The notes beneath the pieces are model-generated. The model had not been told where the DNA came from. It worked only from the letters and a program-made list of their open reading frames with translations, and ran no database searches. A program made the translations under genes and the position numbers. A stretch of DNA of 35,521 nucleotides from Phycisphaeraceae bacterium (GTDB lineage: Bacteria; Planctomycetota; Phycisphaerae; Phycisphaerales; Zrk34): contig JANQHD010000046.1 in NCBI GenBank assembly GCA_028282805.1, positions 1 to 35,521 of the forward strand. Reading direction: 5' to 3'. Below are positions 1,379-22,348 of the stretch, in pieces (position 1 is the stretch's first letter; every line of letters starts with the position of its first letter).

Positions 1379-2122
1379 TCATTCCAAATCGTACAGCGCG
1401 TTGTCTTCCGACAGAAACCCCGTGCCCTCGGCGACCAGCTCACCGCCCTCGTCCGATTCGGTGAACCGCTCGGCCCAGCCCTGCGCGTGGCCGTCGGCGA
1501 ACGCGACGTTCGTCTTGCCGTGGTGCCGGTAGCCCTGCGTGCCCGCGTGCCGGCCCGAAAACGACTCGTACACCGTGGCGCGCGGCGAGCGCATGAACTT
1601 GTTCGCGCCCGCCGCGTATTCGCCGTCGCCGAACACCGCGGTGCGCGACGGGTTCTGCACTTCCGTCGCGCGGGCCGGCTTGCCGAAGTCACGCCCCAGG
1701 TAGCTGGTGTTGTAGTTGTAGCCCGTGTGCGGGTCGCTCGCCCAGTTGGCCGAGCCCTTGAACGACGGGCACTGCTGCACCTCGCTCGGCGCATCGACGC
1801 CCGACCACAGCAGGCCCGGCTCGACCGTGTCGCGCGGCTGACCGCCCGACCAGTCGCGCCGCGTCGTGAAGTCCCACGCGTACCTCACCGCCACGCCGCC
1901 TTCGATCTTCAGCGCGGTCGCCGGCGGGTAACGCCCGTCGTGCTCCGCGTGGTACGCGAACACCGCCGCGCCGAACTGGTGCAGGTTGCTCAAACACTTC
2001 ACGCCCTTGCCCAGCTCGCGCGCCATGCCCAGCGCCGGCAGCAGAATACCCACCAGCAGCGCAACGATCGCCACCACCACCAACAGCTCGACCAGCGTAA
2101 ACGCACCGGTGTGACGGTTCAT
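1379..2122 (-). CDS. Pseudopilin-like protein with prepilin leader and H-X9-DG motif
   Basis: A 247-residue protein of the family greatly expanded in planctomycetes. Its leader (AFTLVELLVVVAIVALL) is a class III prepilin signal: cleavage is expected before the Phe near residue 8, after which the hydrophobic helix remains as assembly domain. The C-terminal half carries the processing-associated motif HHGKTNVAFADG (His, nine residues, Asp-Gly). Such proteins are thought to be exported by a type II/IV-pilus-like system, but the function of the family is unknown. Its ATG overlaps the stop of the dockerin/PEP-CTERM gene by 4 bp (ATGA), so it is translationally coupled and is the last gene of the riboswitch-controlled operon. 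Confidence 0.9.
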   Translation of the reverse strand: MNRHTGAFTLVELLVVVAIVALLVGILLPALGMARELGKGVKCLSNLHQFGAAVFAYHAEHDGRYPPATALKIEGGVAVRYAWDFTTRRDWSGGQPRDTVEPGLLWSGVDAPSEVQQCPSFKGSANWASDPHTGYNYNTSYLGRDFGKPARATEVQNPSRTAVFGDGEYAAGANKFMRSPRATVYESFSGRHAGTQGYRHHGKTNVAFADGHAQGWAERFTESDEGGELVAEGTGFLSEDNALYDLE

Positions 2123-3471
2123 GCGTGCGCCCCCCGTTTGGCGTGGTCACTTAAGTGACCACGCCGCACACACACCGCGCCCATGAGCACGAACACCAAT
2201 AAGCTGGTCGGCTCAGGCACCGCCGCCGGCGCAGCGCTCGCGTCGAAACCAAAGTGCGTGCCCAGCTCGTTCAGGTCCACCAGCGTCACCCGCCCGTCGC
2301 CCGAAAAATCGCCCGCCGCCCATCCGCCCGCCGCGCCGAAGTGCACGCCGACCACGTTCAAATCCACCAACGACACCTTGCCGTCGAGGTTCGTATCGCC
2401 CCGGCGTGTGCCGAGCACGCCCTCCACCAGGTGTGTGACATCGGCCTGGTCGGCGTCGTGGTCGCCGTCGAAGTCGAGCCGTGTTTGCGCCACCACGCCG
2501 CCTTCGCCCGTCAGCCGCGCGAACAGGTAGTCGATGTCGTCGGCGTCTTCGTGTGTGTCGCAGTTCAGGTCGCCGGCCGCGCAATCGAACAGCGCCGCCA
2601 CGTCGCTGAACGCATCGACCTCGGCGGTGCTGCTGTTGTCCACACGCACGTACCGAAACCAGTCGAGCGGTGCGGCGAGGTCGGCCAGGTCGAAGCCCGT
2701 GCCGCCGGCCGCGTAGGCGTCGGCTTGCGCGTGGTAATACGAATCGGCGACCTGCCGCACCGTCTGCCCCGCGTGGTCGGCGAACGTTAAACTCGGGTCG
2801 ACCGGCAGCGTCGGGTCCGTCGGCCGGCCCCACCACTGGTTCCACGCCCAGCTCGCGTCGGGCTGGTGCGGGTTGGTTTCGTCGTATGCCCGGCCGAGCG
2901 TCGGGGCGTATTCGTCGACGCCGGGGCCGGCGGTGAACGTATGCCACTGCCACGTGTCCGGGTCCGCCGCGACCTCGCCGGGCAGGCCTTGAAACCCCTT
3001 GCTGACCGACACCGTCGCCGCTTCGGTGAAGCCGCCGCCGCCGACCGACTTGGCGTTCGGGTCGCGGTTGTCCCAGCCGCCGCCGCTGAAGTCCATGGAC
3101 ATGAAGCTGTTGCCGAACACGATCAGGTCGACGCCGAACGGGTTGTCCGGGTCATCGGTGATCGGGTGATCGAAGGCCACGATCAACTCGCCGCCGTTGC
3201 CCACGGTGACGATCTGGTCGTTGCCCCATGCCGGGTAGACGGGCACCACCGGGATGCTTTCGGCGGGGTTGAGGGTGAAGTCCGGGTCGGTGTCGACGGT
3301 GGGCCGGCCGAGCGCGGCGTTGGCGTCGTTGAACAAGCCCGTGCCCGAACCCGGCGTGTAGCGCACCACCTCGGTGGCGAAGTCCGATGCGTCAAAATCG
3401 TACGCCGTTGCGGCCGACGCGAGCAAGCCGACCACCAGGGCGAACAGCGCGTATCGTTTTGTGTGTTTCAT
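2119..3471 (-). CDS. Secreted PEP-CTERM surface protein with dockerin-like EF-hand repeats
   Basis: A 450-residue exported protein. Residues 1-23 are a signal peptide (cut near ATAYDF). A globular region of about 270 residues follows, with features such as DLIVFGNSFMS, GGWDNRDPN and GGGGFTEAATVSV; I do not recognise the domain with certainty. Next come dockerin-type Ca-binding loops (GDLNCDTHEDADDID, DFDGDHDADQADV, GDTNLDGKVSLVDLN, GDFSGDGRVTLVDLN) and finally a PEP-CTERM sorting signal (VPEPTSLLVFVLMGA with a basic stretch). The tail runs about 17 residues past the expected basic end. It is the second gene of the operon behind the cobalamin riboswitch, 69 bp after the first PEP-CTERM gene. 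A role in surface binding of corrinoids is inference from regulation only. Confidence 0.85.
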   Translation of the reverse strand: MKHTKRYALFALVVGLLASAATAYDFDASDFATEVVRYTPGSGTGLFNDANAALGRPTVDTDPDFTLNPAESIPVVPVYPAWGNDQIVTVGNGGELIVAFDHPITDDPDNPFGVDLIVFGNSFMSMDFSGGGWDNRDPNAKSVGGGGFTEAATVSVSKGFQGLPGEVAADPDTWQWHTFTAGPGVDEYAPTLGRAYDETNPHQPDASWAWNQWWGRPTDPTLPVDPSLTFADHAGQTVRQVADSYYHAQADAYAAGGTGFDLADLAAPLDWFRYVRVDNSSTAEVDAFSDVAALFDCAAGDLNCDTHEDADDIDYLFARLTGEGGVVAQTRLDFDGDHDADQADVTHLVEGVLGTRRGDTNLDGKVSLVDLNVVGVHFGAAGGWAAGDFSGDGRVTLVDLNELGTHFGFDASAAPAAVPEPTSLLVFVLMGAVCVRRGHLSDHAKRGAHA

Positions 3472-3485
3472 GGTTGGTCTCTCTT

Positions 3486-3521
3486 CGAAAAAGTAGGCGG
3501 CGCGCCACGCGGCGCGCCGCC
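3486..3521 (-). terminator. Intercistronic hairpin with short U tract
   Basis: An 11-bp perfect GC stem (GGCGGCGCGCC at 3496-3506 and its complement at 3511-3521, loop of 4) is followed on the minus strand by TAC and five T. It lies between the first two genes of the operon and could act as partial terminator or mRNA stabiliser, making the first protein more abundant. Confidence 0.6.
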
Positions 3522-3540
3522 GGTGATTGCCCGTACCTGT

Positions 3541-4242
3541 TTACTTGCGACGCATCACCCCCACCGCCCCCAACGCCAGCAGCACCAGGCTCGCCGGCTC
3601 GGGTACCGGGTTGCTCGGCGGCCCGCCGGTAAAACCGGGCGCGAAGCTCAGCCCCAGCCAACCGTCGTCGCCGATCGTGTCGGCCGACAGGCCCGAGCCG
3701 AAGCCCCACGACCCGCCGTCGAAGGGGTTGCCGGTGGCGACGTACTGGCCCCAAAAGCCTGTGGACCATCCCTCGGCGTAGCGGTCGTCGCTGTCGACGG
3801 CCAAGCCGCCGTCGGCCGTGGCCGATTGAACCGAACCGCTGTCGGTGTCGGTGTCGTGCAGGCCCAGGGCGTTGAACGGCGCAGCGTCGGTGGTGGCGAA
3901 GCCGTCGCCGTCCTGGTCGTAGCCGATGCCGAACAGCGCCATGCCGAACGCGCTCTGCGAATCGTACTCGGCGTACAATTCACTGACGCCCGCGATCACG
4001 TCCAAGAACAGCGTCTCCGCCGAGACGCTCGAGCCGTCGAAGCGGTAACCCCAAACGAAAGAGTGCGACTCGCCCGACGCCGCCGGCGCTTGGCCGTCGT
4101 TGAAGTCGATCACCAGCGCCGCTTCGTGGGCGCCGCTGCCGGTCCAGTCGGTGATGTCGGAAAAGGTGAAGCCGGCCTGTGCGCTGGCCGACACGACGAT
4201 GAGCGCGGCCCACGCGGCCGCGGCGCAAACGTAGCGCTGCAT
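3541..4242 (-). CDS. PEP-CTERM surface protein under cobalamin riboswitch control
   Basis: A 233-residue exported protein: signal peptide (residues 1-24, ending ASAQAG), a beta-rich mature domain with GSGAHEAALVIDFNDG, SFVWGYRFDG and GYDQDGDGF, and a textbook PEP-CTERM sorting signal at the end (PVPEPASLVLLALGAVG then MRRK). PEP-CTERM proteins are processed by exosortase and delivered to the envelope or exterior. From memory, the GSG..AALVIDFND...WGYRFDG pattern occurs in other surface proteins linked to B12 uptake regions, but I could not verify this. The ATG at 4242 is preceded by AGGAG at 6 nt and is the only start giving a signal peptide. It is the first gene behind the riboswitch and terminator, so it should be expressed when cobalamin is scarce. 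Confidence 0.88.
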   Translation of the reverse strand: MQRYVCAAAAWAALIVVSASAQAGFTFSDITDWTGSGAHEAALVIDFNDGQAPAASGESHSFVWGYRFDGSSVSAETLFLDVIAGVSELYAEYDSQSAFGMALFGIGYDQDGDGFATTDAAPFNALGLHDTDTDSGSVQSATADGGLAVDSDDRYAEGWSTGFWGQYVATGNPFDGGSWGFGSGLSADTIGDDGWLGLSFAPGFTGGPPSNPVPEPASLVLLALGAVGVMRRK

Positions 4243-4286
4243 AAAACACTCCTGCCCCGATTCGCGCGGGGCCTGACCCGTGACAC

Positions 4287-4322
4287 AAAAAAAACACCCG
4301 GCCCGCGCGGGGAAACCGGGTG
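4287..4322 (-). terminator. Rho-independent terminator of the riboswitch expression platform
   Basis: On the minus strand CACCCGG (4322-4316) pairs with CCGGGTG (4301-4295) around a loop that contains a further self-complementary CCCGCGCGGG, and eight T follow (4294-4287). It sits between the aptamer and the start codon at 4242. An upstream ACCGGG (4367-4362) can pair with the CCCGGT in the 5' arm, which would make an antiterminator. Ligand-induced premature termination is the natural reading. Confidence 0.85.
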
Positions 4323-4401
4323 GCATACTTCTGTCCGGGGTCGTCGGAAGACAGCGCCTTGCCCGGTGCCCGTAAAACGCGAGGGCACACGTCAAACGTG
4401 T

Positions 4402-4680
4402 CAGGCAGGTCTTCCGGCTTAGAGCTCGTTCGGTCGCCTTCCCACGCCGGGCCGTAGCCCGACGCAGTGACTCTGTTGACCGAACGCTGCCCCACACTTG
4501 GCAAACCGATGGGAACGGTCTGCGGGGGCTGCCCATCACGGCGGCGCGTCCGCGGTGGATTCGCTCTCGCCCGCCCATCCCATGAACCGAACCGGTTCCG
4601 GGCGGCGAAAGCTCACCACGCTTCCCTTTTCACCCGGTCGCTGGGTTCTCTTCCCTCCAGCGGCCGGGCACCTGTCACGC
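4402..4680 (-). ncRNA. Cobalamin (B12) riboswitch
   Basis: Read on the minus strand the segment has, in order, ACAGGTGCC near its 5' end (P1 side), GGTGAAAAGGGAAG (4634-4621), GAATCCACCGCGGACG (about 4563-4548), GTGATGGGCAGC, GTCACTG (about 4471-4465), GTGGGAAGGCG (about 4444-4434) and the B12 box AGCCGGAAGACCTGCCT (about 4419-4403). Order and spacing match the adenosylcobalamin-type aptamer. After the B12 box, ACACGT-TTG-ACGTGT forms a hairpin that competes with the end of P1, followed by a GTGCCC/GGGCAC stem and then the terminator. It precedes two PEP-CTERM genes and a pseudopilin gene rather than a transporter. Confidence 0.92.
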
Positions 4681-4685
4681 GCTCG

Positions 4686-4714
4686 AACATAACGCCCACG
4701 ACCCCGCCGAGCAA
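4686..4714 (-). promoter_or_regulatory. Sigma-70-type promoter for the riboswitch operon
   Basis: On the minus strand TTGCTC (4714-4709) and TATGTT (4691-4686) are separated by exactly 17 nt. Transcription would start near 4679, right at the 5' edge of the riboswitch. It lies in the gap between the stop of the 4737-5441 gene and the aptamer. Confidence 0.65.
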
Positions 4715-21595: not shown

Positions 21596-22348
21596 ATGGG
21601 TAGCCGCCGCGCCTTTACGCTGGTTGAACTGTTGGTGGTCATCGCGATCGTCGCGGTGCTGCTGAGCGTGCTGGTGCCGGCGCTGGCCAAGGCGCGCGCG
21701 TCGGCGCGCGTGGTGGCGTGCCAGGCCAACCAGCGCCAGCTCGGCGTGGCGGTGCACGCGTACGCGGCGGAGTACGACGGGCTGATCCCGTTCGGCCCCG
21801 ACGTGAGCGGCCCGGTCGACATCTTCGACTTCTACCGCACCACCGGCATGCTCACCAGCCTCATCTCCACCAACGCCGGCGAGCCCGTGGGCCTCGGCCT
21901 GTTGCTCGACGAGCACCTCGCGGCCCAACCGCTGGCGCTGTTCTGCCCCGGCGCCGACCAGAAGGTCGAAACGGACGACGAGCTGGCGAAGGTCGGCCAG
22001 ACCCAGGCGCAGGGCAGCTACTGGTACCGCCACGCGTCGCGCATCTCGCAGTTCGACCCGGTCGACAAGCGGCGGCTGCGTTTGTCGACGCTCGCCGAGA
22101 ACCGCAACGGCGACCCGATGCGGGCGCTGGCGATGGACAGCAACTTCGTCGTGCACGAGCAGCTGGCGCTGTTCGGCGTCGTCACCCGCACGCACCACGA
22201 GTCGGCGCGGGTCAACGTGTTGCTGCGCGACGGCTCGGCCGCGACCCGCAACAACGCCGACGGCCGGTACACCGCCGACGTCGGTGCCCGCCCCGACGAG
22301 GGGCCCGAGATGATGCTGCAAGCGTTCGAGACCGCCGATCGCGAATAA
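21596..22348 (+). CDS. Pseudopilin-like protein with prepilin leader
   Basis: A 250-residue relative of the 1379-2122 protein: leader GSRRAFTLVELLVVIAIVAVL with the class III prepilin site before Phe, then QANQRQLGVAVHAYAAEYDG and a C-terminal HHESARVNVLLRDGS that corresponds to the H-X9-DG motif with one residue more. Function of the family is unknown; export through a pilus-type assembly system is expected. The last 23 bp of coding sequence (22324-22346) recur at 23013-23035, after the next gene. It pairs with the PEP-CTERM gene upstream. Confidence 0.9.
   Translation: MGSRRAFTLVELLVVIAIVAVLLSVLVPALAKARASARVVACQANQRQLGVAVHAYAAEYDGLIPFGPDVSGPVDIFDFYRTTGMLTSLISTNAGEPVGLGLLLDEHLAAQPLALFCPGADQKVETDDELAKVGQTQAQGSYWYRHASRISQFDPVDKRRLRLSTLAENRNGDPMRALAMDSNFVVHEQLALFGVVTRTHHESARVNVLLRDGSAATRNNADGRYTADVGARPDEGPEMMLQAFETADRE
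22324..22346. repeat. 23-bp direct repeat, copy 1 (end of pseudopilin gene)
   Basis: GTTCGAGACCGCCGATCGCG is followed by AAT; copy 2 at 23013-23035 differs by one base (C to T). The copies are 689 bp apart and enclose the lower-GC gene at 22446-23003. Confidence 0.95.

Follow-up and report, generated by a model that had tools for sequence, protein, structure and literature searches.

Function of an operon behind a cobalamin riboswitch

The locus considered here raises the question of what a cobalamin riboswitch controls in a planctomycete when it is followed by three genes for exported proteins. The original prediction had proposed an extracellular cobalamin capture system of planctomycetes, formed by two PEP-CTERM proteins, one of them with a dockerin, and a pseudopilin. 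We followed up this proposal in the window (the whole stretch of DNA that was analysed, 35,521 nucleotides) and in 61 genomes, comprising its own genome and 60 relatives of the same order. The elements of the locus are the following:

4387..4690, minus strand, cobalamin riboswitch aptamer (RF00174), by covariance-model match
4287..4322, minus strand, intrinsic terminator of the riboswitch, a 10-pair stem (4322-4295) followed by eight T
3541..4242, minus strand, P1, exported PEP-CTERM protein of 233 aa, by PEP-CTERM match
3496..3521, minus strand, 11-bp GC-rich hairpin with a T-rich tail between P1 and P2, by terminator-like-site scan
2119..3471, minus strand, P2, exported protein of 450 aa with a BtuH-like domain, dockerin-like repeats and a PEP-CTERM-like tail, by family-profile match
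1379..2122, minus strand, P3, type IV pilin-like protein (pseudopilin) of 247 aa, by N_methyl match

The aptamer (4690-4387, minus strand) matches RF00174 over its full length (model positions 1-189) with 47.4 bits against a gathering score of 31.5 (E 5.2e-9), which bears out the riboswitch of the original prediction, and it is the sole RF00174 match in a genome of 3.9 Mb that is 99.8% complete. The terminator claimed with it was also recovered, with the sequence CACCCGG-N14-CCGGGTG-TTTTTTTT, between the aptamer and the first ORF (P1), and the three ORFs for exported proteins P1, P2 and P3 lie downstream of both elements as had been described. The claimed promoter was not, as no sigma-70-type consensus match was found ahead of the operon. 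P2 and P3 share four bases (ATGA), and the spacing of the genes suggests that P1 to P3 are co-transcribed, which we grade as no more than likely, given the lack of a promoter match and the extra hairpin between P1 and P2. This hairpin is a possible attenuator, the scan having found two terminator-like sites against 1.5 expected in shuffles. At the edge of the window, the contig starts inside an array of the 7-base unit TTTGCCC (1-94), so the assembly probably broke there, and an ORF beside the operon (929-1331) resembles by eye the YraN (UPF0102) family.

Within the same family, several genomes (G001, G003, G004, G005, G006 and G007) have an equivalent of the riboswitch terminator hairpin at a similar spacing; most of the order's other families showed none, and there the riboswitch may work differently. 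As a general feature of the order, a hairpin-plus-T terminator was rejected, since it was found at 11 of 62 riboswitch sites against 15 of 186 shuffles. From the elements present at our locus, we infer that the riboswitch would permit transcription past the terminator when corrinoid is scarce.

P2 is a homologue of the BtuH domain

P2 on its own gave no useful match in the PDB and its body contains no domain of Pfam or NCBIfam; the relation described here emerges from the family profile only. A profile that included the dockerins (A2) was swamped by calmodulin EF-hands and the P2 body alone was therefore used. The profile built from 41 P2-family bodies (A7) matches the H-domain of BtuG1 of Bacteroides thetaiotaomicron (8blw_B, 390-659) with an E-value of 4.2e-21 and BtuH2 with bound B12 (7biz_A) with an E-value of 2.5e-15, the C-terminal extension of BtuG1 being a BtuH domain (PMC10404256). 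In the window, the BtuH-like domain of P2 covers 3405-2587, and the dockerin-like repeats are residues 358-403 of the protein.

In BtuH2, Asn399 contacts the phosphate of B12 and Phe401 its lower ligand (PMC8941943). Both residues fall in a GNAF motif of the alignment, in which the Asn is invariant in 41/41 relatives and corresponds to N121 of P2, and Phe401 to F123, with residues placed by an offset of 100 derived from an aligned Tyr-Trp pair. The further contacts Gln333, Tyr510, Trp511 and Trp577 are not evident in P2 in the profile A7 alignment, so that binding may be altered. A 718-aa protein encoded behind a riboswitch in a relative (L040:2701-4854) has matches to the P2 family as well as to DUF4465 and is likely a fusion of two B12-binding domains.

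Of the two PEP-CTERM proteins originally announced, P1 stands, with a tail scoring 26.8 bits against a cut-off of 20.7 (E 5e-6). The tail of P2 (12.8 bits, same cut-off) and its Dockerin_1 match (19 bits against 22.9, E 0.0016) both remain below the curated cut-offs.

The modelled core of P1 has the fold of the transcobalamin beta domain

Searches with the sequence of P1, single or as a profile, gave no PDB match, transcobalamin included; no Pfam family was matched by the body in nine members up to an E-value of 1, and no NCBIfam body domain was found for P1. An AlphaFold2 model built on 9 sequences has a mean pLDDT of 68, with core blocks at 90 or more. In this model, the core (residues 36-203, approximately window 4137-3634) adopts the fold of the transcobalamin beta domain, with a VIA-align Z of 9.5 and an rmsd of 2.5 over 100 residues to 2bb6. 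Transcobalamin fills the top 11 rows of this comparison, in which unrelated folds appear at Z 4.4 and below and the Ruminococcus protein 3u7z ranks in between (Z 8.1); none of the plain Foldseek E-values for the model was significant. As P1 does not belong to the transcobalamin or any Pfam family by sequence profile, we say that it has the fold of a transcobalamin beta domain and not that it is a transcobalamin. The beta domain is the B12-gripping half of human transcobalamin.

A link to B12 also comes from homologues of P1 found by sequence alone. RF00174 is present in 23 of the 27 loci scanned, and these span Planctomycetota, Verrucomicrobiota, Fimbriimonadaceae, Neomarinimicrobiota and Bacteroidota, so that the system extends beyond planctomycetes, to which it had been assigned. 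The P1 and P2 families co-occur in these loci and are followed by a pilin, or by BtuB instead in Bacteroidota, where P1 homologues adjoin BtuB, and in one Akkermansiaceae genome. In three Fimbriimonadaceae loci (L101, L113 and L116) the order behind the riboswitch is reversed: pilin, P2 family, P1 family. P1 is a bacterial protein modelled with a transcobalamin beta-domain fold and tied to B12 through gene linkage across phyla, and no paper was found that joins transcobalamin-like proteins, bacteria and a riboswitch.

Distribution of the operon in the order

The check suggested with the original prediction, to run the Rfam cobalamin model on this genome and its relatives and to list the genes downstream, was carried out on the 61 genomes. 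RF00174 is present in 57 of them, and the DNA behind 62 riboswitch sites in 56 genomes was examined, a 63rd site (G035) being left out. An operon of this kind recurs behind the riboswitch in the majority of the order's genomes, so the riboswitch match is not due to chance. Typically, it is followed by one or two exported proteins and then by a pilin of the P3 family. Among the 56 genomes, by family profiles from which the tails had been trimmed, the P2 family is encoded behind the riboswitch in 44, propeller-like proteins in 14, the P1 family in nine, DUF4465 in five and BtuB in three. DUF4465 (PF14717, E-values to 2e-55) occupies the same operon slots in G004, G021, G039, G048 and G057, as propeller-like proteins do in relatives, and members of the DUF4465 / IPR027828 family bind B12 (PMC13398666).

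A P3-type pilin is found behind the riboswitch in 53 of the 56 genomes, at 56 sites, of which 54 come from the systematic count and two (G041 and G015) were seen in the family-profile survey, the ORFs having probably begun upstream there. As for the remaining three genomes, BtuB is found in place of the pilin in G003, and in G002 and G013 the sequence stops at the end of a contig. Of all the operon's genes, the P3-type pilin is the most constant across the order, and it alternates with BtuB between phyla, which the original prediction had not foreseen. The pseudopilin of the original prediction accordingly keeps its place in the operon; it is not, as had been thought, a mere third capture protein.

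CbiC, a marker of corrin-ring synthesis, was found in 0/61 genomes, whereas FecCD is present in 60/61 and a B12-binding domain in 61/61; methionine synthase MetH was confirmed in G058. Taken together, these domain matches, of which the absence of CbiC is a single negative marker, would fit corrinoid scavenging. All 61 genomes also carry exosortase genes (two copies in our own genome) and secretins.

A probable corrinoid-capture operon

Altogether, we consider it probable that the locus serves corrinoid capture in a Phycisphaerae planctomycete that scavenges B12, and that B12 represses the operon. P1 and P2 would be exported, attached to the surface through PEP-CTERM/exosortase or dockerin contacts, and, as we infer from homology and from the modelled fold, would bind corrinoid there. 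P3 might join a type IV filament or a type II secretion pseudopilus and might help either to get the capture proteins to the outside or to return captured corrinoid through a secretin. Corrinoid would then cross the inner membrane via a BtuCD-type ABC transporter and reach MetH-type enzymes. The idea of extracellular capture is thus well supported, on better grounds than those first given for it: the BtuH homology of P2, the modelled fold of P1, the B12 riboswitches at loci of P1 homologues in four other phyla, the absence of CbiC, and the presence of DUF4465 in the same slots and of exosortases in all 61 genomes. The lack of a sequence-level match for P1, the mere nine sequences behind its model, the several BtuH2 contacts not evident in P2, its sub-threshold tail and dockerin and the many pilin-like proteins of the genome were counted against it.

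That the riboswitch governs unrelated surface or adhesion proteins and that its link to B12 is incidental appears very improbable. The operon has no transporter, and planctomycetes are rich in PEP-CTERM, dockerin and pilin-type proteins, which would agree with such an explanation, but the BtuH homology, the transcobalamin-like fold, the DUF4465 proteins encoded in equivalent slots and the cross-phylum linkage to B12 riboswitches and to BtuB all speak against it.

The pilin-type protein and its possible roles

P3 has a prepilin peptidase motif (G-AFTLVE) and an N_methyl match of 25.8 bits against 21.2 (E 7.2e-6). Its model has a pLDDT of 90 and matches pilins only, the best being Thermus PilA4 (Z 6.2). 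The genome has 32 matches to P3, P3 itself included; in the window, a further pilin-like ORF (21608-21793, in a 253 aa open frame) also matches it. In a tree, the operon pilins stand apart from the paralogues of our own genome, with four changes against 19.4 in shuffles (two of the 56 rows labelled as operon pilins being distal paralogues from G009 and G018), and they may have a single origin.

Over all sets, 75 riboswitches are followed by a pilin only, 24 by BtuB only, 45 by neither and none by both (Fisher p 1.7e-9, or 0.002 without the sites of the order itself, with sites treated as independent and shared ancestry ignored). Elsewhere in the phylum, a pilin is found behind seven of 59 riboswitches and BtuB behind 15, and in the P1-homologue loci a pilin behind 12 and BtuB behind six, again without any site having both. 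Two genomes (G033 and G042) have two consecutive riboswitches, one preceding the pilin and the other BtuB. TonB-dependent receptors are absent from 29 of the 61 genomes by PF00593, with which PF07715 agrees closely, and from 15/15 genomes of one family; 26 of these 29 genomes have the riboswitch, and the pilin is present in all 25 that could be evaluated. Our own genome has five such receptors, of which four were examined and none was assigned to BtuB. Several receptor-less genomes encode a small BFD-like [2Fe-2S] protein (PF04324) after the pilin (e.g. L054:5557-5817 and L067:7863-8096).

One reading of this distribution is that the pilin takes over from BtuB: a type IV filament able to retract would bring corrinoid caught by P1 and P2 through a secretin, in a TonB-independent uptake across the outer membrane. 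The strict alternation under single riboswitches, the separate riboswitches of pilin and BtuB in G033 and G042, the pilin of every evaluable receptor-less genome, the family devoid of receptors, the ubiquitous secretins and the lack of an assigned BtuB in our own genome would all agree with it. Conversely, the Fisher tests disregard shared ancestry, missing receptors may mean porins or proteins outside PF00593 and PF07715, G033 and G042 possess both pilin and BtuB, and we know of no precedent for the import of a vitamin by a pilus. We therefore hold this reading to be rather unlikely. The same doubt attaches to its extension, in which a type IV filament protein would take the role of BtuB in a TonB-independent corrinoid machine across Planctomycetota, Verrucomicrobiota, Fimbriimonadaceae (Armatimonadota) and Neomarinimicrobiota: a pilin-dependent route of B12 uptake is plausible, and a pilin in the very place of BtuB is speculative.

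It is possible, if still doubtful, that P3 is a dedicated type II secretion pseudopilin serving to deliver P1 and P2 to the surface, with corrinoid entering by a porin or another channel. The exported proteins are encoded together with P3, all genomes have secretins, and Bacteroidota, which use lipoprotein export, have BtuB and no pilin. On the other hand, other exported PEP-CTERM proteins are not known to depend on a pseudopilin of their own, and three riboswitches (L177, L187 and L213) are followed by no recognised gene other than the pilin. These same sites would favour the view that P3 itself binds corrinoid at the surface and shares only its export route with pilins, which we regard as improbable since the comparison of its model yielded ordinary pilins at weak scores and no corrinoid-binding fold. 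The capture operon raises the question of how corrinoid passes the outer membrane in genomes that have B12-binding enzyme domains and neither CbiC nor a TonB-dependent receptor, and whether a pilin is responsible.

Comparison with known systems

P3 shares with type IV pilins and type II pseudopilins (PilA4, 6xxd; XcpG) the prepilin motif, the long N-terminal helix and the fold, and differs from them by its control by a B12 riboswitch and by its operon-specific clades. The likeness of P1 to the transcobalamin beta domain (2bb6, 5np4) lies in the fold of its core (Z 9.1-9.5 over 100 residues), whereas the identity is 9-11%, no sequence profile matches, and P1 is a bacterial PEP-CTERM protein without the alpha-barrel domain. 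The B12-binding DUF4465 / IPR027828 family shares the operon slot in relatives, but neither P1 nor P2 is a member, as PF14717 (DUF4465/BtuJ) matched neither. In titles and abstracts, we found no system that joins cobalamin riboswitches with PEP-CTERM proteins or pilins.

A close parallel is provided by the loci of B. thetaiotaomicron encoding BtuB, BtuG, BtuH and BtuJ (PMC10404256, PMC8941943, PMC12751083), where cobalamin riboswitches likewise precede surface B12-binding proteins, of which P2 is here a homologue of the BtuH domain and DUF4465/BtuJ is represented in relatives. By contrast, PEP-CTERM or dockerin sorting stands here in place of lipoprotein anchors, a pilin-type protein in place of BtuB, which inspection of the ORFs did not reveal in the operon, and the P1 family is not described in those loci (PMC10404256, PMC8941943, PMC12751083). 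Because BtuB is missing from it, the operon would work like the capture loci of Bacteroides without belonging to the BtuBG system. Surface capture of B12 under riboswitch control would extend from the lipoproteins of gut Bacteroidetes to PEP-CTERM proteins of planctomycetes and of other phyla.
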